Shown here: positions 41,942-52,929 of the stretch, piece by piece | How positions within the stretch are numbered: position 1 is the stretch's first letter | Layout of the letters: every line of letters starts with the position of its first letter | Source of the DNA: Lysobacteraceae bacterium | Lineage (GTDB): Bacteria > Pseudomonadota > Gammaproteobacteria > Nevskiales > Nevskiaceae | Direction: 5' to 3' | DNA length: 64,000 nt | Assembly (NCBI GenBank): GCA_013823855.1 | Contig: PNMW01000007.1 | Coordinates: forward strand, 124,001-188,000 | Translations under genes and position numbers: made by a program | The notes under the pieces: generated by a model | What the model saw: only the letters and a program-made list of their open reading frames with translations | What the model was told of the DNA's origin: nothing | The model's database searches: none

Positions 41942-42015
41942 CGGAACGCGTTCAGGCGGCCATGCGGCCGGGCATCAGGGATAAGCCGCGCATTGTACGG
42001 CGCGGGCGACGCAGC

Positions 42016-42327
42016 TCAGGCCGGATCGGCTTCGTGGATCCACGGCCGGCCGCGCGAGTTGGCGCGCCAGCCTTCGGCCATCGCCGCTTCGATGCAGCCC
42101 TGCAGGCGCCTGGCGAACTGGATTTCCGACTTGGGCCGGCCCTGGCCGAACTCGACGTAGGGGAATTCGACGATCAGCTCGCGGCGCTTGCCGGGGTCGG
42201 TCGACACGGTCACCGACAGGCCGCCGCAGCCGCCGCCCTTGACCGGTCCGCCGACCCAGTGGCGCACCTGCCAGTGGAATTCGTCGTCGCCGATGACGAT
42301 GACGCCGTGATCCTTGAACGCGGCCAT
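42016..42327 (-). CDS. Hypothetical protein (103 aa) coupled to ydfG
   Basis: The ATG at 42325-42327 overlaps the ydfG stop by one base (TGATG), which both fixes the start and implies translational coupling. The 103-residue protein begins MAAFKDHGVIVIGDDEFHWQ, has a Gly/Cys turn (GPVKGGGCGGLSVTV), then VEFPYVEFGQGRPKSEIQFA and a helical C-terminus ending in GRPWIHEADPA. No signal peptide or membrane segment is present. I do not recognise a named family. The mixed beta-alpha pattern suggests a compact cytoplasmic domain. It is followed after 74 bases by argS. Confidence 0.75.
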   Translation of the reverse strand: MAAFKDHGVIVIGDDEFHWQVRHWVGGPVKGGGCGGLSVTVSTDPGKRRELIVEFPYVEFGQGRPKSEIQFARRLQGCIEAAMAEGWRANSRGRPWIHEADPA

Positions 42328-43094
42328 CAGTTCGCGGGCTCGCGGCGCTTCACCGCCAGCGGCCCGATCGCCTGGCATTCCGGCATCAATTGCAGGTGGT
42401 TGATGTTGACGTGGGCCGGACGCGATGCCACCCAGTAGACGGCGTCGGCGACATCCTCGGCCGACAGCGGCGTGGTGCCGGCGTAGACCGCATCGGCCTT
42501 GGCCTGATCGCCGTGGAAACGCACGGCGGAAAACTCGGTGCCGCCGCACAGGCCCGGCTCGATGTCGGTGGCGCGGACGCCGGTGCCGACCAGATCGGTC
42601 CTGAGGTTCAGGGTGAACTGGCGGACGAAGGCCTTGGTCGCGCCATAGGTGTTGCCGCCCGGATACGGCCATTCGCCGGCGGTGGAGCCGATGTTGATCA
42701 CGTGGCCGCGACCGCGCGCCACCATGCCCGGCAGCACGGTGCGGGTCATGGTCATCAGGCCCTTGATGTTGGTGTCGACCATCCGCTCCCAGTCCTCGAG
42801 GCTGGCGCGCTGCGCCGGTTCGAGGCCGAGTGCCAGGCCGGCGTTGTTGACCAGCACGTCGAGCGCGGCCCATTCGGCCGGAAGCTGCCCGATCACTGCC
42901 TCGATGGCGGCACGGTCGGTGACGTCGAGCGCCACCGGCAGCACGGCGGCGCCCAGTTCGGCGTGCAGCGCGGCGAGGCGGTCGACGCGGCGGGCGGCGG
43001 CGATCACGCGGTGGCCTTCGGCGACGAAGCGGCGGGTGATGGCGGCACCAAAGCCGGCGCTGGCGCCGGTGACGAAGACGATTTTCGAATCCAT
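42327..43094 (-). CDS. ydfG: NADP-dependent 3-hydroxy acid dehydrogenase (YdfG-type SDR)
   Basis: A 255-residue short-chain dehydrogenase. The cofactor motif is FVTGASAGFGAAITRRF (about 7-23), and NNAGLALGLEPAQRASLEDW, INIGSTAGEWPYPGGNTYGA (with the Ser) and YGATKAFVRQFTLNLRTDL (with Tyr and Lys of the catalytic triad) follow. IEPGLCGGTEFSAVRF and RPAHVNINHLQLMPECQ near the end are specific for the YdfG subfamily. E. coli YdfG oxidises L-serine, L-allo-threonine and 3-hydroxypropionate and reduces malonic semialdehyde. The next gene overlaps its stop by one base. Confidence 0.93.
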   Translation of the reverse strand: MDSKIVFVTGASAGFGAAITRRFVAEGHRVIAAARRVDRLAALHAELGAAVLPVALDVTDRAAIEAVIGQLPAEWAALDVLVNNAGLALGLEPAQRASLEDWERMVDTNIKGLMTMTRTVLPGMVARGRGHVINIGSTAGEWPYPGGNTYGATKAFVRQFTLNLRTDLVGTGVRATDIEPGLCGGTEFSAVRFHGDQAKADAVYAGTTPLSAEDVADAVYWVASRPAHVNINHLQLMPECQAIGPLAVKRREPAN

Positions 43095-43165
43095 GGGGAA
43101 CGGGTGACAGCGGGAACGGAATGAATTGTGCCCGTTCCGGCACCGGGCAATGGCGGCCGGCGGGG

Positions 43166-44599
43166 TCAGGGACGGTCGCGGTCCGGCAGCGGCGCGTCCG
43201 GATCGAGCTGCCGCTGCAGGCTGTGCAGCGCCTCGTCGTAGGCGAGGCTGATGTCGTAGCGCAGCCGCAGCGGCGCCGAGCGGCGACCATCCGGGGTGAT
43301 CGCGATGGCGGTCAGCTGCACCGGCGCCGGCAGATGGATCGGCCCGCGATACAGCGCGCTGCCGCTGTCCGGTTCGCCGCTGGTGGTCGAGTAGACGATC
43401 AGCGCGTCCGGCACGCTGGCACGCAGGCGCAGGTTGACCGGCTGGGCGTACGGGCCGGGTTCGGGGCTGGCGGTCAGTTGCGGCGGCGCCGGGTCCGGCG
43501 GCGATCCGGAGGCGGCGAGGCGGGCCATCGGGCTCGACAGGCCGCTGACCGCGCTGTGGGCATAGCAGGTCAGCCAGGCGCCGGCCGGAAGCGTCACCGT
43601 GACCCGCGGCGTTGACGCGGCATCCGGGTAGCGGCCCTGGCCGGTGCAGTGCAGGCGGGCATCGGCCGGCACGGCGCGCAGGATATTGCCGTCACGGACG
43701 AGGGTCGGCGCCGTGGCGTTCGGCAGCGGTTCGTGGCCGGCGCGCAGGAAATCGGCGATCACCGCCAGCGTCGCCGGCTGGCGCGGCAGTTCCAGATGGT
43801 TGTAGCCGCCGTCCCAGCCGCGCGCCTCGCGGTTGAAGGCGACATTGACCGCGCCGGCCAGCGCTGGGCTGTCCTCGTAGCCGCTCGGGAACAGGGCGTC
43901 GTAGCGGCCGGTGCCGTCGTAGAGCGTCATGGTCCGCATCGCGCCGGCCACTTCGCCGCCGGCATTGAGCTGGGCCAGCCACGGGCTGCCGCGGTGCAGC
44001 TCGAAGCTGCTGGCGCGGCTCGGGCCGCGGGCGTCCGGCCGGGCGGTCCAGACGCCGTGGTTGGCGCCAGCCACGGCGACGAAGCTGCGCACCTGGTGCC
44101 AGCGGTTGCTCTGGGTCAGCCACTGGCGCACGGCGGTGACGCCGAGCGAGTGGGCGACGATGTCGAACTGGCGGATCGGCCGGCCGCTTTTCCGGCTCAG
44201 GTAGCGCTGCACTTCGTCGACGAAGGCGTCCAGCGTCGGTGCCGCGAGATCGTTGACGTCGAAGCGATCGGTGGACGCCCAGCCGTAGCTCGGCGCCCAG
44301 AGTTCATCGTCGTTCCAGCCGGCATCGAGAAACCAGCGGCGGGCGTCCTCCCAGTAGGTCGCGTCCTCGGTGTTGCCGTGAATGAACAGGATCGGCGTGC
44401 GGCTGGGGCTGTCCTTGTCCGCCGACGCCGGCGGCTGCCAGCGACCGCCCCAGCCATACACCGGCTGGCCTGTGGCCTTGCTGAGCGGCGGCTGGAAGCC
44501 GTCCGGAAACGCGCGCTCGTGCGGCCTGGGCGCGCGGTCGCCGACCGTCGCGCAGGCGGCGAGGCCGAGCAGCAGCGCCAGCCCTGCCGCGCATTTCAC
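43166..44599 (-). CDS. Lipase/esterase-like lipoprotein with C-terminal CHB_HEX-type domain
   Basis: A 477-residue protein starting at GTG 44599, which overlaps the stop of the upstream gene by 4 bases. MKCAAGLALLLGLAAC is a lipoprotein signal (Cys16). The alpha/beta-hydrolase domain has the oxyanion segment LFIHGNTEDATYW (71-83), the nucleophile motif AHSLG with Ser151, VAGANHGVW and a candidate catalytic His in GGYNHLELP. After about residue 390 a separate module (LRASVPDALIVYSTTSGEPD, then LYRGPIHLPAPVQLTAIAIT) resembles the chitobiase/beta-hexosaminidase C-terminal fold often appended to secreted enzymes. It is the last gene of an acyl-CoA ligase/barrel operon, so it may release an acyl or aryl acid outside the cell. 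Confidence 0.82.
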   Translation of the reverse strand: MKCAAGLALLLGLAACATVGDRAPRPHERAFPDGFQPPLSKATGQPVYGWGGRWQPPASADKDSPSRTPILFIHGNTEDATYWEDARRWFLDAGWNDDELWAPSYGWASTDRFDVNDLAAPTLDAFVDEVQRYLSRKSGRPIRQFDIVAHSLGVTAVRQWLTQSNRWHQVRSFVAVAGANHGVWTARPDARGPSRASSFELHRGSPWLAQLNAGGEVAGAMRTMTLYDGTGRYDALFPSGYEDSPALAGAVNVAFNREARGWDGGYNHLELPRQPATLAVIADFLRAGHEPLPNATAPTLVRDGNILRAVPADARLHCTGQGRYPDAASTPRVTVTLPAGAWLTCYAHSAVSGLSSPMARLAASGSPPDPAPPQLTASPEPGPYAQPVNLRLRASVPDALIVYSTTSGEPDSGSALYRGPIHLPAPVQLTAIAITPDGRRSAPLRLRYDISLAYDEALHSLQRQLDPDAPLPDRDRP

Positions 44600-45783
44600 G
44601 GCGCGAACAGCAGGAACACGAGGCGCAGCTCGAAATACGGCGAGGCGCTGATCGCCGCCGCTTCCTGGACGCCGCTGAGACGGGCCGTCTGCCGGGCGGC
44701 GGGCAGCTCGCTGTCGGCATTGCAGGGCGTGCTGGCGCAGACGTGGTACGGCACCATGAACTGCGAGCCGCGACCGGCGACCGGCAGCGCGGCGCGCAGG
44801 CTGGCGACTGCCGAGCTGCGGTAGACGTAGCTGAAACCGGCCGTGACGATGTTGTTGCGGATGCCGCGATCCCGGTAGCTGCCGGGCACCGGCGCGAGAT
44901 AGAAGACGTCGAGCAGGCCGCACTGGTCGGCCGGCACCAGCAGGGTGGTGCAGGCGGCCGTCGGTGGCACCGGCTGGTCGGCACGGTTCAGGCTGACCTC
45001 GTCGTAGCGGTTGCTGCCGAGGCTGCGGTAATGGCTGATGCCGGTTTCCGCGTACCAGCGCGCGCTGAACTTCCAGGCGAAGTTGGCTTCGAGATTGAAC
45101 ACGCTGGCCGGCTTCGACGGGGTCAGGCCGCCGTAGGCGGTTCGCGACGCCGCGCTGTTGATCTGCAGCGCGGCGGTGGCCTCGATCGACAGCCTGCCGA
45201 ACCAGTCCTGATGATGGGACAGCTGCGGCATCACGCTCCAGTAGCGGGTGCCGGGATTGAGCAGGGAATCGCGCCGGAAGCTGCCGACCGGGGCTTTCAC
45301 GGTCAGCGTGTACAGGCCGTTGCCGTGCAGCGGGCCGTGGTGGTACTGCTGGCCGTAGACGCCGGCGAGCAGGAAGACATCGCCGAGCCCGGTGCCGCGC
45401 GAGGTCTGGCCGAAATCGCGCGACAGGTCGTTGATCGCGCCGCTGGCCGACTGCCGGCCGGCGGTGCCGATCACCCTCAGGACCTGGTCATGATCGGCGA
45501 GGAACGGCAGGCCGCTGTCCTCGAACAGGTTGCCGATCCACAGGTAGCGGCCGAGCAGCAAGGTCGCGTCGATCGCCTCGCCTGGCGGAATCGCGGTGTT
45601 GCCGAGCGCCACCTTGCGGCCGTCGGCATCCCAGATGCGGTCGATCGAGGCATGGGCGACCGTGGTGTCGAGATAGGTGCCCCGCGGCAGCACGGCGTAT
45701 TCGGAGACATGCGGTGTGAACACGATGGCCGCCTGCGCCGGGCCGGCCAGCGCGATGCAGGCGAGCGCCGGCCATCGCTTCAT
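44596..45783 (-). CDS. Outer-membrane beta-barrel, MetA-pathway/SphA-like channel
   Basis: A 395-residue protein with a signal peptide (MKRWPALACIALAGPAQA) and then a pattern of alternating strands and aromatic girdle residues. The start LPRGTYLDTTVAHASIDRIW followed by DADGRKVALGNTAIPPGEAI strongly resembles the putative MetA-pathway of phenol degradation family, outer-membrane channels for hydrophobic or aromatic compounds. The C-terminus ends ASPYFELRLVFLLFAP, without the classic terminal Phe, but with strand-like hydrophobic alternation. It contains two Cys pairs (ACTTLLVPADQC and VCASTPC). The ATG overlaps the stop of the preceding barrel gene by 4 bases, and its own stop overlaps the lipase start. 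Confidence 0.75.
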   Translation of the reverse strand: MKRWPALACIALAGPAQAAIVFTPHVSEYAVLPRGTYLDTTVAHASIDRIWDADGRKVALGNTAIPPGEAIDATLLLGRYLWIGNLFEDSGLPFLADHDQVLRVIGTAGRQSASGAINDLSRDFGQTSRGTGLGDVFLLAGVYGQQYHHGPLHGNGLYTLTVKAPVGSFRRDSLLNPGTRYWSVMPQLSHHQDWFGRLSIEATAALQINSAASRTAYGGLTPSKPASVFNLEANFAWKFSARWYAETGISHYRSLGSNRYDEVSLNRADQPVPPTAACTTLLVPADQCGLLDVFYLAPVPGSYRDRGIRNNIVTAGFSYVYRSSAVASLRAALPVAGRGSQFMVPYHVCASTPCNADSELPAARQTARLSGVQEAAAISASPYFELRLVFLLFAP

Positions 45784-46961
45784 GGCGCGCTCCGGCTCTG
45801 GCTGGGCTGCCAGCGCAGGCTCAGCAGGACGCTGTCGGACGCGTAGCTGCGGGCGCGGCCGAGGCCGTCGACGACATCGCTGCCGTTCGGCTGCGGCTGG
45901 CAGCTGCCGAGCGCCTGGCAGTCGGCCGGCTGCTGCAGGTAGGGCACGGTGACGCTGCCGCTGCGGCCGGACAGCGGATGGGTATAGGCGAGGGCCAGCC
46001 ACAGGCGCGGGGTGACGAAGGCGCCGAGGCCGAACTGCAGGCGCTGCTCGCGGCTGCCCCGGTCGCGCAGCGGTGCCGGATCCGGAAAGCGGTCCTGCAG
46101 CGGCGCGGCGTCCGGCGGATTCGCGGTGCTGCGGATCCGCCGGTACTCGCTGGCCTGGCCATCGCGGTAGTAGTACGAGACCTGCGCGTGCACGTCGCGC
46201 CACAGCCGTCGCGCCAAGGTGGCGTCGAATTCCAGGTCGCGACCGGCCTGGGTCGGCGCCTGGGCATTGAAGGCCGGTTCCTGGTTGGCTTCGTACCAGC
46301 GCAGCCGCACGCCGGCATCGAGGCGGATGCCGCGCAGCCAGGCGGTCTGCGGCTGCCAGTGGCCGCCGAGCCGCCCGCCCCAGGCGAACGCGCCGTCGCC
46401 GGCATTGTTCGGCGCGTCCGGGTCCTGGGCGCCGATCGGTACCCGCAGCTCGCCGAGCAGGATCAGCGACAGCGGCGTGGCGGTGCGGCTGCGCCAGTCG
46501 CGCGAACCGAACAGCACCGGGCCGAAGGCGAGATCGAGATCGTTGATGCCCGATTTCGACGACGGCCCGCCGGCCGCGACGGCGGCTGTCGCGATCGGGC
46601 CCTTGCTCGAGGTGTCGCTGTAGCCGAGCGCGGCGCGGGCGTTCCACAGCCGCGACGAGACGAACGGCAGCGCCTCGGCCTCGAACATCGGGAAATGCCA
46701 GTCGAAATCGATGCGAGCCTGGGTCAGCGGGAATTCGCTGCCGGCACCGTAGCGGGGTGCGACACCCGGCTGGCGACGGCCATCGGCCCCGAAGCTTCGA
46801 TCGCGCGGGTCGTGCAGCAGGCTCAGGCCGACGGTCAGGCCGGGATGCCGGGACAGGAAGCGGCCGCTGTCGAGCAGCAGGTCGGGGTTGGCAAGCGCGG
46901 CGGGCGCGATCGCCACGCCCAGTCCGGTCAGCAGGGCGCGCGCGAACCCTGCGCTCGGCAT
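45780..46961 (-). CDS. Second outer-membrane beta-barrel protein of the operon
   Basis: A 393-residue protein with an N-terminal signal (MPSAGFARALLTGLGVAIAP, cleavage after LAN). The remainder has many short amphipathic strands ending in aromatic residues (ARIDFDWHFPMF, VSSRLWNARAALGYS, LRLRWYEANQ, AQVSYYYRDG, LALAYTHPLSGRSG, SVLLSLRWQPS), as expected of a beta barrel. GINDLDLAFGPVLFG resembles the GINDLSRDFG segment of the next protein, suggesting that the two barrels are distantly related. The start ATG overlaps the acyl-CoA ligase stop by one base. The function is inferred to be substrate uptake. I do not recognise a named family for it with certainty. Confidence 0.7.
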   Translation of the reverse strand: MPSAGFARALLTGLGVAIAPAALANPDLLLDSGRFLSRHPGLTVGLSLLHDPRDRSFGADGRRQPGVAPRYGAGSEFPLTQARIDFDWHFPMFEAEALPFVSSRLWNARAALGYSDTSSKGPIATAAVAAGGPSSKSGINDLDLAFGPVLFGSRDWRSRTATPLSLILLGELRVPIGAQDPDAPNNAGDGAFAWGGRLGGHWQPQTAWLRGIRLDAGVRLRWYEANQEPAFNAQAPTQAGRDLEFDATLARRLWRDVHAQVSYYYRDGQASEYRRIRSTANPPDAAPLQDRFPDPAPLRDRGSREQRLQFGLGAFVTPRLWLALAYTHPLSGRSGSVTVPYLQQPADCQALGSCQPQPNGSDVVDGLGRARSYASDSVLLSLRWQPSQSRSAP

Positions 46962-48475
46962 CAGGCCACGTGTCCGAGCCGGTCGCTGCCGAGGTCGCTG
47001 AGCATGGCGCGGTACTGCTCGCGGGTCTCGGTCTTCAGCACCTTGCCGACAGCGCTGCGCGGCAATGCCGGAACCACGACGAACGCCGCCGGGATCTTGT
47101 AGCCGGCGAGGCGCTGGCGCAGCGCCGTGCGCAGCTGCGCCTCGTCGTACGGCAGGCCCGGGTGGCGCACCACGAAGGCGATGCCGACCTCGCCCCAGCG
47201 GGCATCGGGCCAGCCGAACACGCAGGCCTCGGCGATCTCCGGGGATTCCAGCACCGCCGCCTCGATCTCCGATGGGTAGATGTTCTCGCCACCGGAGATG
47301 TACAGATCCTTGAGCCGGCCGCAGATGGTGATGCGCCCGGCCGCGTCGCGGCGGGCGAGGTCGCCGGTGTGCAGCCAGCCGCCGCGAAATGCCGCTTCGG
47401 CATCGTGCGGACCCCAGTAACCGGCGCAGACCTGCGGTCCGCCGAGGCACAGCTCGCCGACTTCGCCGGCATCGGTCGGCTGGCCGTCGGCACGGCGGAC
47501 ATCGACGAGCACGCGCGGCATCGGCAGGCCGACCGCCTGCGGGTTGTCGACCGCGGGATCACCGCCGAGGAAGCAGTTGACGCCGGCCTCGGTCATGCCG
47601 AAGCCGCAGCGGAAGCGGATGCCGCGGCGCAGGTAGCGGTCGCACAGCGTCTGCGGGCACGGCGCCCCGCCGGACAGTGCCATCCGCACGGCGGACAGAT
47701 CGGCCGTCGCGAAACCCGGTTCGTCGGCGAGGGCGACGAACATGGTCGGCACCATGAACAGGATGGTGGCGCGGTGGGCCACGGCCTGCCGCAGGTATTC
47801 GGCCGGCTCGAAGCGCGGCATCAGCACCACGGTGCCGCCGACCCTGAGCAGCGGCAGGCTCAGCACGTTGGCGGCGGCGTGGAAGCACGGGGTGGCCTGG
47901 ATCACGACATCGCCGGGCCGCAGCGCCCAGGCCTCGGCACTGTCGTCGGCATTGCCCAGCGTCTGCCGGTATGGCAGGCAGGCGCCCTTGGCGGCACCGG
48001 TCGAACCGCCGGTGAACAGGATCATGTGGATGTCGTCCATGCCCGGTGCCGGCTCCGGCACCGGTGCTGCCGCCGCCGGCGTTTCCGCGAGCCAGTGCTC
48101 GTAGTCGGCCAGATGGATCACGGGCACGCCGAGCGCGGCGCCGGCCGCCGCGGACGCGGCGTCGACCAGCAGCAGTGCGGGCGTCACCTGCGCCATCTGG
48201 GCTGCCAGTTCGGGCGCGCCGAGGCGGATGTTCAGCGGCACCGCGATGATGCCGGCGATCGGTGCGGCAATCAGCAGATCGAAGTGGGCGACGTCGTTCT
48301 GGCCGAGGATCGCCACCCGATCGCCGCGCCGGACCCCGTGCTCGCGCAGGCGCTGGGCCAGGCGGCGGGAGCGGATCGCCAGGTCGCGATAGGTCCAGGC
48401 CCGGTCACCGGCGCGCAGCGCCACCCGCCCGGGCAGGGCGAGGCGTGCGAAACCGATGACGTCCGGTCTTGACAT
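46961..48475 (-). CDS. AMP-dependent acyl/aryl-CoA ligase
   Basis: A 504-residue member of the ANL adenylating superfamily that activates a carboxylic acid with ATP and CoA. Motifs: the P-loop ILFTGGSTGAAKG (about 155-167; FTGGS in place of the usual YTSGT), GFGMTEAGVN, HTGDLARRDAAGRITICGR followed by LKDLYISGGENIYPSEIE, and the C-terminal PRSAVGKVLKTE with the catalytic Lys. Substrate cannot be read; relatives act on long-chain fatty, cyclohexane or aromatic acids. It is the first gene of the operon with two outer-membrane barrels and the lipase-like lipoprotein. An inverted repeat covers its start codon. Confidence 0.92.
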   Translation of the reverse strand: MSRPDVIGFARLALPGRVALRAGDRAWTYRDLAIRSRRLAQRLREHGVRRGDRVAILGQNDVAHFDLLIAAPIAGIIAVPLNIRLGAPELAAQMAQVTPALLLVDAASAAAGAALGVPVIHLADYEHWLAETPAAAAPVPEPAPGMDDIHMILFTGGSTGAAKGACLPYRQTLGNADDSAEAWALRPGDVVIQATPCFHAAANVLSLPLLRVGGTVVLMPRFEPAEYLRQAVAHRATILFMVPTMFVALADEPGFATADLSAVRMALSGGAPCPQTLCDRYLRRGIRFRCGFGMTEAGVNCFLGGDPAVDNPQAVGLPMPRVLVDVRRADGQPTDAGEVGELCLGGPQVCAGYWGPHDAEAAFRGGWLHTGDLARRDAAGRITICGRLKDLYISGGENIYPSEIEAAVLESPEIAEACVFGWPDARWGEVGIAFVVRHPGLPYDEAQLRTALRQRLAGYKIPAAFVVVPALPRSAVGKVLKTETREQYRAMLSDLGSDRLGHVA

Positions 48476-48510
48476 GAGGGCCGCAAGACAGCATGGAGAG
48501 AACCCTCATG
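48473..48510. promoter_or_regulatory. Inverted repeat over the acyl-CoA ligase start
   Basis: catgaggg (48473-48480) and ccctcatg (48503-48510) form a perfect 8-bp inverted repeat with a 22-base centre. The left arm contains the complement of the ligase ATG. It may be an operator for the upstream TetR protein or an RNA hairpin that hides the start codon. Confidence 0.4.
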
Positions 48511-48572
48511 ATACGGACGCACCCGCAGGCGAGCGACTTGAACGCAGCGTCGGCTCGCGTGCCGGTTCGGCG

Positions 48573-49172
48573 TCAGCGCGGCGCGATGCCGTTGGCGATC
48601 AGGTCCATCACCGCGTCGACCAGTTCCGGCGTTGGCACCTGCTGCTGCCAGAGACACCAGCGCATGCCGATGAAATGGCCGATGCCCATGATCGTCCAGG
48701 CGCGGGCGACGGCATCACCCGGTGCCAGTTCACCGTTGGCGGTCGCTTCCGCGAGGTCCTCGGCGTAGCTTTCGGCGAGGCGCTCGTAGTACTCGCGGAA
48801 CACCGATTCATCGACGAACTGCGATTCCTGGACGATCCGGTACAGGCCCGGGTGGGCGTGCGCGAATTCGAAGAAGGCCTCCAGGCCACGCCGCTCGGCG
48901 ACGATCCGGTTGGCCGAGCCATTGACCGCCAGCGCCATGTGCTTGCGCAGCCGGGAGCCGATATCCCGGACCAGGGTCAGGAAGATCTCGTCCTTGGAAT
49001 GGAAGTACAGATAGAAGGTGCCTTGGCCAACATCGGCGCGGGTGGTGATCGAGCTGACCGAGGCGACGTGAAAGCCCTTTTCGCCGATTTCGACTTCAGC
49101 AGCCGCCAGCAATTTGCGGCGCGTGGCTTCGCCGCGGGCAGTGACGGGGGTGAGTTCCTTGTTGATGGTCAC
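48573..49172 (-). CDS. TetR-family regulator upstream of the acyl-CoA ligase operon
   Basis: A 199-residue regulator starting at GTG 49172, since no ATG is available before the helix-turn-helix. The DNA-binding part is GEATRRKLLAAAEVEIGEKG, then VSSITTRADVGQGTFYLYFHSKDEIF (about 13-62). The C-terminal domain (LEAFFEFAHAHPGLYRIVQE, then REYYERLAESYAEDL) resembles TetR proteins that sense acyl-CoA or aromatic compounds. It points in the same direction as the ligase operon and lies 97 bases upstream of it, so it may be co-transcribed with and control the operon. The 174 bases upstream of its start are AT-richer and hold no gene. Confidence 0.9.
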   Translation of the reverse strand: MTINKELTPVTARGEATRRKLLAAAEVEIGEKGFHVASVSSITTRADVGQGTFYLYFHSKDEIFLTLVRDIGSRLRKHMALAVNGSANRIVAERRGLEAFFEFAHAHPGLYRIVQESQFVDESVFREYYERLAESYAEDLAEATANGELAPGDAVARAWTIMGIGHFIGMRWCLWQQQVPTPELVDAVMDLIANGIAPR

Positions 49173-49346
49173 GGGAGATGCACTCGTTATCGGAGCGGTA
49201 GTGGTCAGAATACGCTACGAAGAGCGTGATCGCCGTGGATGGATGATTTAAACGTGCGGTCGTTCCCGTCTTTTCAGACCGATTCGTCATGGCGCTATCG
49301 CGATTGGCACGAGTTGCGACACGAAGCATCCGTCAGCTTGGTCCGT

Positions 49347-50867
49347 TCAGCCGTTTTCTCCGGTCCGCCGGCCGTCGACGGCTGCCAGCTTCAGCCGTTC
49401 GCCACCATTGCGCGGCGCCGGTCCGCGCCGGGCTTCGCCGTGGCGGCGCAGGCCCTGTTCCTTGAGCCAGAACAGGCAATCCTCGAATGCGCGGGAAATC
49501 CGGGTCTGCAGGCGGATGCGCTCCAGCTTCGGCCAGGTCGCCCGCTCGCCGTCGCGGATGAAACCGGCGATTGCCGCCTGCGAGGGGTTCGAGAACATCC
49601 GCATCAGCTGGGTCGGCGACTGCCGGGGGAACACGCTGATGTCGCCGCTGTAGCGTTGCTGGAGCACGTCGTTGAGCATGTCGACGATGCGCCCCGGCAC
49701 GGCCGCGCCGACGTAGTTGCGGGTCAGCTTGAGGACATCGCGGGTCGCGGTGGTGGCGACATGCTGGACCACGTCGGTCACCGAGCGGCGGCGCGGGTTG
49801 TGCTCGCGCATGAACGGCACCACGTGCGGATTGGTCTGGCTGACGATGTAGTGGTTGACGTTGTGCAGCCGCGCCAAGCGCAGCATCGGCAGATCGTTGG
49901 CGATCGAGCCGTCGACCCAGCGCTTGGAACGCATGTACGGATGCTTGACGCCGTCGAAATCGAGCGAATCGAGCATCACCGGCGGGAACACGCCGGGCAC
50001 CGCGCAGGACGCCAGCACCGCCGACTGCACGGTGACGTTCGGCGCGGTCAGGTAGTTCAGCAGGCGCGCCGACTGGTGGGCTTCCGCCGGCGACACGGTG
50101 ACGCCGAGGATGCGCCGGGTCCGCTCGAACGCCTGGATGAAGCTGCCCGGCATGATGTTGCGTTCCAGGCAGTTCAGCAGCTGGCGCGGGTCCATCAGCG
50201 CGTTGCCGGCCAGCACCTGGCGCAGGCTGACGGTCTGGAATGCCTGCAGGCTCAAGGATTCCGGATCGAACATCGCCGGCAGTTCCTCGTCGGTGCGGGT
50301 GCCGACCATGCTGGCGATGATCGCGCCGGCCGAGGAGCCGGAGATCACCCGTGGCAGCACGTTGGCTTCCGACAGCGCCTTGATCACGCCGAGGTGGAAC
50401 ATGCCGAGTGTGGCGCCACCGGACAGCAGTAGTGCGCTGCGGCCGAAGCTGGTGCCGGTACGCTTGAAGAACAGGATCTTCTCCTCGTTGGAGAAGTCCG
50501 GGAAATCGCCGACGCAGACATAGTCCAGACAGCGCGCCGATTCCTCGATGTAGTCCTCGACCAGCTTCTTGGTGCCGACCCGGGCATACGAATACAGCAC
50601 CGGATCGGCGACGTTGCCGAGGTTGCCGTGCAGCCCTTCGGCCAGCTGGAACACCAGCTGCCGGACTTCCCCGGACTTGCGCAGCTCGCGCAGCGTATTC
50701 AGCCGCTCCTTGATCAGCAGGTAGTCGTAGTCATCGCTCATCTCGTCCTGTTTCCAGGCGTCCGAGCCTTCGAGACGGTCGAGCCCGGTCGCGATCTCGC
50801 GCCATTCGGCGTAGGACGTGGCCTGCTCGAGGTCCCGCTGGTAAGCGGCAATCAGCTTTTTCGACAT
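49347..50867 (-). CDS. DUF3336-patatin phospholipase/triacylglycerol lipase
   Basis: A 506-residue protein; the ATG at 50867 (MSKKLIAAYQRDLEQATSYA) starts the DUF3336 domain (about 1-135). The patatin domain follows with LLLSGGATLGMFHLGVIKAL (oxyanion Gly loop), the nucleophile elbow GSSAG (Ser179) and the dyad Asp in RWVDGSIANDLP. This DUF3336-patatin architecture is that of the eukaryotic TGL3/4/5 and SDP1 lipid-body triacylglycerol lipases, and is also scattered through proteobacteria. A role in neutral lipid or phospholipid turnover is likely. No membrane segment is visible. It is divergent from mprF across 181 bases. Confidence 0.92.
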   Translation of the reverse strand: MSKKLIAAYQRDLEQATSYAEWREIATGLDRLEGSDAWKQDEMSDDYDYLLIKERLNTLRELRKSGEVRQLVFQLAEGLHGNLGNVADPVLYSYARVGTKKLVEDYIEESARCLDYVCVGDFPDFSNEEKILFFKRTGTSFGRSALLLSGGATLGMFHLGVIKALSEANVLPRVISGSSAGAIIASMVGTRTDEELPAMFDPESLSLQAFQTVSLRQVLAGNALMDPRQLLNCLERNIMPGSFIQAFERTRRILGVTVSPAEAHQSARLLNYLTAPNVTVQSAVLASCAVPGVFPPVMLDSLDFDGVKHPYMRSKRWVDGSIANDLPMLRLARLHNVNHYIVSQTNPHVVPFMREHNPRRRSVTDVVQHVATTATRDVLKLTRNYVGAAVPGRIVDMLNDVLQQRYSGDISVFPRQSPTQLMRMFSNPSQAAIAGFIRDGERATWPKLERIRLQTRISRAFEDCLFWLKEQGLRRHGEARRGPAPRNGGERLKLAAVDGRRTGENG

Positions 50868-51048
50868 GCGGGGGGCGCAGTTCGGCGAGGGCCCCGAGTA
50901 TGCCATTGCGCAGTGCAGCAATCGGAATCGGGCGGACCCGCGCGATCCGACGTGCTGGCCGTCCGTCGGACGTCAAGAAATTGTTGCCCCAACTGCCTGT
51001 CGACTTCAGCGGCAGGATTACAATTCGCCGCGCCGCCGCCGGAACTCC

Positions 51049-52929
51049 ATGTCGCTTCGCGTCACCGCTCTGCTTGCCCCGCTGTTTGCCGACCGCCGAC
51101 GCCTCGCCGTCGCCGCGCCTGCCCTTTGCGTGCTCGCGCTGGCCGGCTGGGCAATCGGCAAGAATCTGGTCGCCTTCTTCAAGGCGCTGGCGGCACAGTC
51201 TCCGGCAGTCATCGCCGCGACCGTGATCGGCAGTCTGGCCGCCGCAGTGCTGGTCTGGCGTGCCCGCGGCCACCTCGATCTGCACCGCGAGCGCCTGCTG
51301 CTGCTTGGCGGCCGGGTCCAGGACGCGATCGAGGTGCTGGCGCCGACGGTGCTGGCGACCACCGTGTTCCTGGCCGGCGCCGTGCTGCTGATCTCCGGCG
51401 CCACGCCGGCCGTCGACAGCCGACTGGCCGGGCTCGCCGAGTGGATTCCGCTGAGCCTGCTGGAGTTCTCGCACATGGTCGGCAGCGCGGTCGGCCTGGG
51501 TCTGCTGATCCTCGCTCGTGGCCTGTACCGGCGGCTCGATGGCGCCTGGTGGATGACCCTGGTGCTGCTGGCCGCCGGCGCGGTCGCTTCGATGCTCAAG
51601 GGCCTCGACTACGAGGAAGCGCTGCTGCTGTCGGCGATCCTGCTGGTGCTGCTCAGCTCCCACGAACGCTTCTACCGGCGCGCCTCGCTGCTCGAAGTGC
51701 GCGATTCGCGGCTGTGGCTGTCCGCCACGCTGGCGGTGGTGGCGCTGGCGGTCTGGCTGTCGATGCTGTCGTACCACGACCTCAGCTTCAGCGAGGAAGT
51801 GTGGTGGCGCTTCGCCTTCGACGAACAGACGCCGCGGCTGATGCGCGCCGGCCTGCTGACCGCGCTGATGATGGCCGGCTTCATGCTCTGGCGGCTGTTG
51901 AGTCCGACCCGTACCGAGCCGGTCCCGCCCGATGCCGCCGCGCTGCAGCGGGCGGCCGAAATCATCGCCCGGCACGGCGGCGGCACGCTTGCCAATCTGG
52001 CGCTGCTCGGCGACAAGCAGCTGCTGTTCCATGCCGACGGCGACGCTTTCATCATGTACCAGCGCTCCGGCCGCAGCCTGATCGCGCTGGGCGATCCGGC
52101 CGGCAATCCGGCCAAGTTCGAAGCGCTGGCCTGGTCGTACCGGGAGCTGTGCGACCGCAATGCCTGCTGGCCGGTGTTCTACCAGGTATCGCCGGACCAG
52201 CTGCCGCTGTATCTGGACCTCGGCCTGTCGCTGGCCAAGCTCGGCGAGGAAGCGCGGGTGTTCCTGCCCAGGTTCAGTCTCGACGGCACCCGCAACGCCA
52301 AGCAGCGCAACAAGCACCACCGGGCCACCCGCGAAGGCGCCAGCTTCGTGATGCTGCGGCCGGACGAGGTCGAGGCGCGGCTGTCCGAACTGCAGGCGAT
52401 CTCCGATGACTGGCTGACCGGCAAGTCGGTCGCCGAGAAGGGTTTTTCTGTCGGCCGCTTCGATCCCGACTACCTGAGCCGCTTCCACTGCGCCTGCGTG
52501 CTGCGCGAGGGCCGGATCGTCGCCTTCGCCAACCTGTGGCTGGGCGGCGCGGCGAAGGAAGAATTCGCGATCGACCTGATGCGCTACGGCGCCGAGGCGC
52601 CGAAGGGCGTCATGGACTTCCTGTTCATCGAGCTGATGTTCTGGGGCCGCGACCAGGGCTATCGCTGGTTCAACCTTGGCATGGCGCCGCTGGCCGGGCT
52701 GGAACGTCATCCGCTGGCGCCGTTCTGGCACAAGGTGGGACGAATCGTGCATCGCTATGGCGAGCCGTTCTACAACTTCGACGGCCTGCGCCAGTACAAG
52801 GACAAGTTCTCGCCCGAGTGGCGGCCGCGTTACCTCGCTTCACCCGGCGGCCTGGTGCTGCCTCGCGTCATGGTCGATACCGCGGCACTGATTGCCGGCG
52901 GCATCAAGGAAGTCATCTGGAAGTCATGA
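51049..52929 (+). CDS. mprF: MprF-like aminoacyl-phosphatidylglycerol synthase
   Basis: A 626-residue membrane protein; the ATG at 51049 follows a GGA 5 bases upstream. The C-terminal half (from about residue 300) is the DUF2156 catalytic domain that transfers an amino acid from aminoacyl-tRNA to phosphatidylglycerol: FIMYQRSGRSLIALGDPAGN, FYQVSPDQLPLYLDLGLSLA, FSLDGTRNAKQRNKHHRATR and GVMDFLFIELMFWGRDQGYR. The N-terminal membrane part has about 8-9 hydrophobic segments and is shorter than in full MprF (about 840 residues), so the flippase module looks reduced. Lys versus Ala specificity cannot be read. The next gene, acvB-like, overlaps by 4 bases. Confidence 0.88.
   Translation: MSLRVTALLAPLFADRRRLAVAAPALCVLALAGWAIGKNLVAFFKALAAQSPAVIAATVIGSLAAAVLVWRARGHLDLHRERLLLLGGRVQDAIEVLAPTVLATTVFLAGAVLLISGATPAVDSRLAGLAEWIPLSLLEFSHMVGSAVGLGLLILARGLYRRLDGAWWMTLVLLAAGAVASMLKGLDYEEALLLSAILLVLLSSHERFYRRASLLEVRDSRLWLSATLAVVALAVWLSMLSYHDLSFSEEVWWRFAFDEQTPRLMRAGLLTALMMAGFMLWRLLSPTRTEPVPPDAAALQRAAEIIARHGGGTLANLALLGDKQLLFHADGDAFIMYQRSGRSLIALGDPAGNPAKFEALAWSYRELCDRNACWPVFYQVSPDQLPLYLDLGLSLAKLGEEARVFLPRFSLDGTRNAKQRNKHHRATREGASFVMLRPDEVEARLSELQAISDDWLTGKSVAEKGFSVGRFDPDYLSRFHCACVLREGRIVAFANLWLGGAAKEEFAIDLMRYGAEAPKGVMDFLFIELMFWGRDQGYRWFNLGMAPLAGLERHPLAPFWHKVGRIVHRYGEPFYNFDGLRQYKDKFSPEWRPRYLASPGGLVLPRVMVDTAALIAGGIKEVIWKS

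Follow-up and report, generated by a model that had tools for sequence, protein, structure and literature searches.

The four-gene locus and its conservation

The window analysed here, i.e., the whole stretch of 64,000 nucleotides at positions 124,001 to 188,000 of contig PNMW01000007.1 (assembly GCA_013823855.1, Lysobacteraceae bacterium, a water bacterium of the order Nevskiales), contains on its minus strand four genes in the order ligase, barrel 2, barrel 1, hydrolase. LIG (48475-46961, ATG start, 504 amino acids, aa) is an acyl-CoA ligase with AMP-binding and AMP-binding_C domains. BAR2 (46961-45780, ATG, 393 aa) and BAR1 (45783-44596, ATG, 395 aa) are outer-membrane barrels of the COG4313 / Phenol_MetA_deg type. 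LIP (44599-43166, GTG, 477 aa) is a lipoprotein-like ester hydrolase combining a PhaZ7/Lipase_2 catalytic domain with a C-terminal CHB_HEX module. A gene for a TetR-family regulator (PF00440; 49172-48573, minus strand) lies upstream of the ligase, with a gap of 97 bases. An earlier note, made from the sequence alone, had described four overlapping genes as one coupled unit behind a TetR gene; the coordinates, with overlaps of 1, 4 and 4 bases, bear this out. In a consensus scan of 42000-49800 no site resembled a terminator, against 2.8 expected from shuffled sequence, and a single match, on the plus strand, resembled a promoter.

Loci and genomes are designated by L- and G-numbers, respectively (e.g., locus L044 in genome G061). 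The comparison covers 85 genomes of the order; a hydrolase match of any kind is present in 21 of them and a full-length one in 14. Full-length BAR1 is found in the same 14 genomes (window included), where it always adjoins LIP; a fifteenth genome, G080, has a partial BAR1 match of 20 bits. BAR2 is matched in 13 genomes, all hydrolase-bearing, and in G016, whose contig is short, BAR2 is missing and the ligase runs into BAR1. The earlier note had raised the question of whether the homologues are scattered: they are not, both barrels and the hydrolase occurring together in 13 of the 14 hydrolase-bearing genomes. Fisher tests, which ignore the shared ancestry of the genomes, give p ≤1.9e-14 for the barrels against the hydrolase and p 1.9e-8 for the ketosynthase-III-like enzyme described below. 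The ratio of nonsynonymous to synonymous substitution rates (dN/dS) of the four genes is 0.20-0.37 against L032, 0.22-0.37 against L031 and 0.40-0.57 against L033. Judged by these ratios and by the invariable adjacency of BAR1 and LIP, the four-gene set is more than a chance grouping.

Ligase and TetR genes lie within the locus in 11 of the 14 cases. For L035, L037 and L038 they are found, with the ketosynthase, at a second locus of the same genome (L101-L103), beside patatin- and MprF-like genes, a setting which resembles that of the window operon. Since ligase and TetR are displaced in three cases, the tight core consists of the two barrels and the hydrolase. At these second loci two lipoprotein-like genes (about 400 aa) lie behind the ligase (L102 4702-7115, L103 11611-14042, L101 3139-5645), directly in L102 and L103 and with an intervening opposite-strand gene in L101; NHL repeats are present in one member of the L102 pair.

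In a sample of 369 gammaproteobacterial genomes, a few of them from the order, full-length BAR1 and LIP were found in the window's own genome only, with weak or partial matches in five others (BAR1) and one other (LIP). A scan of named genomes returned 11 loci, the same as 11 of the 13 relatives already counted, and thus added names and no numbers: carriers of the set include Fontimonas thermophila DSM 23609, Stagnimonas aquatica THS-13, Nevskia, Nevskiaceae and uncultured Ectothiorhodospiraceae. A plasmid search with BAR1 gave no match; with LIP it gave partial matches in three records (two Haladaptatus, one Streptomyces), and the two Haladaptatus regions have no related neighbours by annotation.

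Properties of the proteins and of the larger system in relatives

The catalytic domain of LIP corresponds to a Lipase_2 match in Pfam (PF01674; residues 68-215, 43955..44398, minus strand, as are all LIP positions below) of 39.8 bits, above the gathering cut-off of 20.3. In an alignment of 14 sequences, which includes the window copy and whose N-termini are approximate (start codons chosen by script), four residues are invariant: Cys16, the lipobox cysteine in LAAC (44552..44554); Ser151, the presumed nucleophile in HSLG (44147..44149), aligned with the AHSMG serine of PhaZ7; Asp228, the presumed triad acid (43916..43918); and His268, the presumed triad base (43796..43798). The roles of Asp228 and His268 are assigned from order and conservation: the lipase order Ser-Asp-His is kept in all 14 sequences, and Ser alone of the three is aligned to PhaZ7 itself. 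This conservation of lipobox and presumed triad, like the gene order, overlaps, families and linkage, is read directly from the sequences. From its lipobox LIP looks like a lipoprotein (signal peptides of the operon proteins were judged by eye). Residues 379-442 (43274..43465) match CHB_HEX_C_1 (PF13290) with 35.6 bits for a cut-off of 22. A lipoprotein-like hydrolase with an added module, as proposed earlier, is supported, the module being CHB_HEX_C_1.

The best sequence match of LIP in the PDB is PhaZ7, over residues 64-186. With a family profile PhaZ7 reaches 60.4 bits vs. 37.9 bits for Bacillus subtilis lipase A. Foldseek, applied to the predicted structure, places 13 PhaZ7 chains on top (E 4.7e-10), followed by a Streptomyces lipase. 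By profile and by predicted fold, the catalytic domain is nearest to the poly(3-hydroxybutyrate) (PHB) depolymerase PhaZ7, though LIP is no PhaZ7 equivalog.

Both barrels exceed the gathering cut-off of Phenol_MetA_deg (PF13557; 22 bits), BAR2 with 28.6 and BAR1 with 42.8 bits, so that the earlier description of a single MetA-type barrel has to be extended to the pair. BAR2 has a signal-peptide-like start by eye. The BAR1 model (predicted local distance difference test, pLDDT, 80.8) contains about 12 long strands by manual count, plus short additional ones; its top fold match is the COG4313 channel 4rl8, with a template modelling (TM) score of 0.81 on the target and 0.56 on the query, followed by the amyloid secretion channel FapF. 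With signal peptides cut by eye, the mature barrels have about 370-376 residues, outside the 270-320 mentioned for the family in passages of its structure paper (PMC4493636). The same passages present COG4313 proteins as likely uptake channels for hydrophobic molecules and argue against hydrophilic cargo (PMC4493636).

LIG has both AMP-binding domains above cut-off (PF00501, 250 bits; PF13193, 69 bits). Its nearest PDB chains are 8weu/8wev (fatty-acyl-CoA synthase / feruloyl-CoA synthetase) with 317 bits, the next group having 223. The stretch AVGKVLK near the C-terminus presumably holds the usual catalytic lysine of such ligases. All of the 25 NCBIfam specificity models listed, out of 109 matched, are below cut-off; as no listed cut-off is passed, the acid cannot be named from the sequence.

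In relatives the set belongs to a larger system with the order TetR, ketosynthase-III-like enzyme, ligase, barrel 2, barrel 1, hydrolase, then reductase and/or symporter. The ketosynthase adjoins the ligase in 7 of the 14 loci and is at the second locus in three further genomes. It exceeds the NF005308 cut-off in 12 of the 85 genomes, 10 of which bear the hydrolase, and in one of 14 control genomes. A presumed Cys-His-His set is present in 9/9 aligned members (3 of the 12 members above cut-off are outside the alignment). At E 1e-70 none was found in 398 genomes of the phylum, among which there was no known positive. The family also occurs on 10 haloarchaeal plasmids with 38-43% identity. In all three regions inspected (L123, L124, L125) the ketosynthase-III-like gene comes directly after Liv-type ABC importer genes, which supports a link with uptake and names no substrate; in a Salarchaeum plasmid region an AMP-binding protein, an alpha/beta hydrolase and a MaoC dehydratase are encoded near it.

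An acetoacetyl-CoA reductase homologue is found in 9 of the 14 loci, divergent from TetR in L036, L041, L042 and L043. The TIGR01829 (acetoacetyl-CoA reductase) cut-off was checked for L034, L036 and L105, and all three pass; for the remaining reductases and for every symporter the assignment is based on BLAST against representatives. A symporter adjoins the set in 9 of the 14 loci (MFS in six, SSS in three), with weak similarity, below cut-off, to PutP/PanF and to aromatic-acid transporters. Locus L039 is cut by a contig end. Compared with these loci, the window holds a stripped version of the larger system. A second small PhaZ7-like hydrolase adjoins the set in L036, L041 and L042; the L041 copy has 51.7 bits on the PhaZ7 model (cut-off 450).

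Two related clusters have to be mentioned. In G037 a sister operon, a one-strand run of seven genes (L105 1-9409), encodes a TonB receptor, a carboxylesterase, a Lipase_2 protein, ketosynthase, ligase, reductase and a 3-hydroxybutyrate dehydrogenase. The last gene, truncated by the contig end, has 279.8 bits on NF009093 (cut-off 258) and is below the cut-offs of TIGR01963 and NF009931. In G061 (L044 2065-10789) a TonB receptor, a match to short-chain-length (scl) polyhydroxyalkanoate (PHA) depolymerase type 1 (239 bits, cut-off 150), a ligase, an alpha/beta hydrolase, a LIP-like hydrolase (32% identity) and an SSS symporter are found. A pha-type locus is also present in the genome of the window. 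It comprises a PHA-synthase-like gene, with 495 bits on TIGR01838 (cut-off 622), a PhaR-like gene, with 98.5 bits for a cut-off of 109, and genes for two acetoacetyl-CoA reductases that exceed the TIGR01829 cut-off; the L036 reductase shares 59% identity with one of the two.

Proposed function and alternative explanations

We propose that the operon serves the foraging of esters at the outer membrane, with 3-hydroxyacyl (poly)esters as the most likely substrates. As a whole statement this is given a probability of roughly 0.45; import followed by trapping is, as a general scheme, probable. Anchored as a lipoprotein, the PhaZ7-like hydrolase would cut esters or polyesters on the outer side of the inner membrane. 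The product, a partly hydrophobic acid or a short oligomer, would pass the outer membrane through the two COG4313-type channels; a symporter of the inner membrane, which is linked to the set in relatives but not in the window, would import the acid, and the ligase would trap it as a CoA ester. The cell-surface location, the direction of transport, the substrate and the order of the steps are inferred. The linkage of a symporter to the set strengthens the import reading. As substrates we consider poly- or oligo(3-hydroxyalkanoates), or 3-hydroxyacyl esters of another kind, the most likely, since relatives encode a ketosynthase-III-like enzyme and an acetoacetyl-CoA reductase as intracellular partners, to which the sister operon of G037 adds a 3-hydroxybutyrate dehydrogenase. 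Of the complete import route imagined in the earlier note, import and trapping are retained and completeness is not, the relatives adding ketosynthase, reductase and symporter. Sterol and aromatic esters are in our judgement no longer the leading substrates.

A more specific form, which we hold to be unlikely, is a hitherto undescribed CoA-first route for 3-hydroxyacyl polyesters in Nevskiales: a tethered PhaZ7-type depolymerase would feed oligomers or acids to the paired channels, the ligase would make 3-hydroxyacyl-CoA, the acetoacetyl-CoA reductase would work in the oxidative direction and the ketosynthase-III-like enzyme would act as a thiolase.

Several observations weigh against the 3-hydroxyacyl-ester proposal. 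With a single sequence, the PDB search gives a near tie between PhaZ7 (32.5 bits) and a Bacillus lipase (30.9 bits), and on the PhaZ7 equivalog NF050060 LIP has 46.7 bits for a cut-off of 450, which is not passed. The LIP model has a mean pLDDT of 78.7 and is poor at residues 179-199 and 232-238; its match with the PhaZ7 fold is moderate (TM-score 0.33-0.35 on the query, 0.44-0.48 on the target, root-mean-square deviation 7-10 Å), perhaps partly due to the extra C-terminal module. One of the two nearest solved relatives of LIG bears the name feruloyl-CoA synthetase. Given the hydrophobic cargo of COG4313 channels, a 3-hydroxybutyrate monomer fits poorly; oligomers or longer 3-hydroxy acids fit better. 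The window and the three loci closest to it, L031, L032 and L033, have no ketosynthase, reductase or symporter homologue at the locus, and in a search made with the MFS and not the SSS, the linked MFS was found at E 1e-20 in none of seven genomes, that of the window included, with no known positive among them. In G037 and G074 the ketosynthase-ligase pair is present although the hydrolase is not. In G074 a crotonase-family gene lies between the ketosynthase and a ligase of 39% identity, which would fit ordinary acyl-CoA breakdown as well. In G082 (L106 9897-10870) an interrupted ketosynthase-like gene, in two pieces with internal stops, lies between TetR and a ligase of 40% identity. Finally, no 3-hydroxybutyrate dehydrogenase was found at E 1e-60 in the 14 hydrolase-bearing genomes (at most 27 candidates scored per genome), while 14 of the 85 genomes have a match at this threshold, 8 of them above cut-off; this absence fits the CoA-first route and equally a different substrate.

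The foraging of lipid esters, which we regard as rather unlikely, would make LIP a lipase, the barrels channels for medium- or long-chain fatty acids and LIG a FadD-type ligase, the ketosynthase and reductase of relatives shunting acyl-CoA to the synthesis of fatty acids or PHA monomers. It would account for the Lipase_2 score of LIP, for the Streptomyces lipase and Bacillus lipase A that follow PhaZ7, for the long-chain acyl-CoA ligase model that is first among the NCBIfam matches of LIG (below cut-off), for the patatin-like gene upstream of TetR, and for the preference of COG4313 for hydrophobic cargo put forward in passages of PMC4493636. However, PhaZ7 is ahead of the lipases in the family-profile search, and neither the linked symporters, with their weak PutP/PanF and aromatic-acid-transporter similarity, nor the 3-hydroxybutyrate dehydrogenase of the sister operon is expected for long-chain fatty acids.

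That LIP frees a hydroxycinnamic or similar acid, imported by MetA-type channels and activated by a feruloyl-CoA-synthetase-like ligase, is distinctly improbable, even if 8weu/8wev as best PDB matches of LIG, the Phenol_MetA_deg type of the channels, the linked MFS (108 bits vs. a cut-off of 418 for aromatic-acid/H+ symporters) and the crotonase-family gene of G074, which has no hydrolase, all point in this direction. No ring-cleavage gene was found among the neighbours scanned, although some neighbours are unannotated, and the linked reductase and ketosynthase are not known to be part of hydroxycinnamate pathways. An envelope or export role, LIP remodelling envelope lipids or transferring acyl groups on them and the barrels exporting, is very improbable: FapF as next fold match of BAR1 and the MprF- and patatin-like neighbours suggest it, but COG4313 beats FapF in E-value and TM-score, a symporter adjoins most of the loci, and both neighbours stay in loci of the genus without the hydrolase.

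To return to 3-hydroxyacyl esters, the proposal, if true, would describe for Gram-negative bacteria a route of polyester foraging that has outer-membrane channels of its own and puts the CoA step first. It would also connect two paired COG4313-type channels with a defined hydrolase. The way in which breakdown products of extracellular polyesters cross the outer membrane would become testable in named strains (Fontimonas thermophila, Stagnimonas aquatica).

Regulatory sites, flanking genes and comparison with known systems

The product of the TetR gene is the probable regulator of the unit. In each of the 14 genomes with the hydrolase this gene has the ligase, or the pair of ketosynthase and ligase, as its neighbour. 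It has the same position in three of the four hydrolase-less loci fetched from the genus (L107-L109); in L110 there is none between the patatin gene and the short-chain dehydrogenase/reductase (SDR) gene. Upstream of TetR, a 27-base block, TAGCGTATTCTGACCACTACCGCTCCG (window 49191-49217, minus strand), is identical in L031 and L032; it is a possible promoter or operator.

An inverted repeat with a 9-6-9 arrangement (L043) is present just upstream of TetR in 6 of the 24 stretches scanned, at L034 16249, L036 15383, L041 16309, L042 16122, L043 16622 and L104 9792, with 0-5 mismatches to the L043 copy and a motif score of 101-108 vs. 95 for the best of six shuffles. In five of the six it sits between TetR and the divergent reductase (gene starts being approximate), and in L043 it touches the called reductase start. 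It is likely the TetR operator in these relatives. The window lacks it when 3 mismatches are allowed, and with 6 allowed it is missing from the window and L031-L033, so that we claim no operator for the window.

The operon is flanked, upstream of TetR, by a DUF3336-patatin gene (49347-50921) and an MprF-like gene (50866-52929), which are head to head, their longest frames overlapping at the starts. Both were considered as parts of the unit and this is not supported: the hydrolase-less loci L107-L110 keep patatin in 4/4 and MprF in 3/4, the contig of L110 ending inside the patatin gene. As they are kept without the hydrolase, they are not tied to the unit. Downstream, a YdfG-type SDR (42327-43094) was rejected as a fifth gene, since 17 of the 18 genus members carry it, regardless of the hydrolase. 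It is about 109 kb away from the set in G017, and in L107-L110 it lies near argS with a small gene between them.

The component families are known. Their assembly was not found described in the literature searched, i.e., no paper on this set was found in open-licence PMC literature, judged by titles and the starts of abstracts, and the searches turned up neither assay results nor localisation or growth data on these proteins.

PhaZ7, the extracellular native scl-PHA depolymerase of Paucimonas lemoignei, shares with LIP the alpha/beta-hydrolase core and the HGN and AHSxG motifs. It differs in that LIP, far under the PhaZ7 equivalog cut-off, has a lipobox and a CHB_HEX module, neither of which is known from PhaZ7 itself. 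The barrels resemble the COG4313 / Phenol_MetA_deg channels Pput2725, SphA and TcpY in passing the Pfam cut-off, and BAR1 in its top fold, 4rl8. SphA, a COG4313 channel of Pseudomonas aeruginosa, is linked to a ceramidase. It is tied to one hydrophobic compound, sphingosine, by which it is upregulated, and neither a CoA ligase nor a paired channel is mentioned for it in passages of PMC4493636. In contrast with the 270-320 residues of mature family members in these passages (PMC4493636), the channels of the operon are precursors of 393-395 aa and form two diverged tandem paralogues.

The classical use of extracellular PHB, as outlined in part of PMC7830162, involves a depolymerase, 3-hydroxybutyrate dehydrogenase and acetoacetyl-CoA synthetase or transferase. 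A secreted ester hydrolase followed by CoA activation is common to both (PMC7830162). In the operon, unlike in the classical route, the acid may be activated before oxidation, and at E 1e-60 no match to the dehydrogenase was found in the 14 genomes. The scl-PHA depolymerase cluster of G061 (L044) has, like the larger system, a ligase, a LIP-like hydrolase and an SSS symporter, whereas a TonB receptor and a match to type 1 PHA depolymerase take the place of the barrels.

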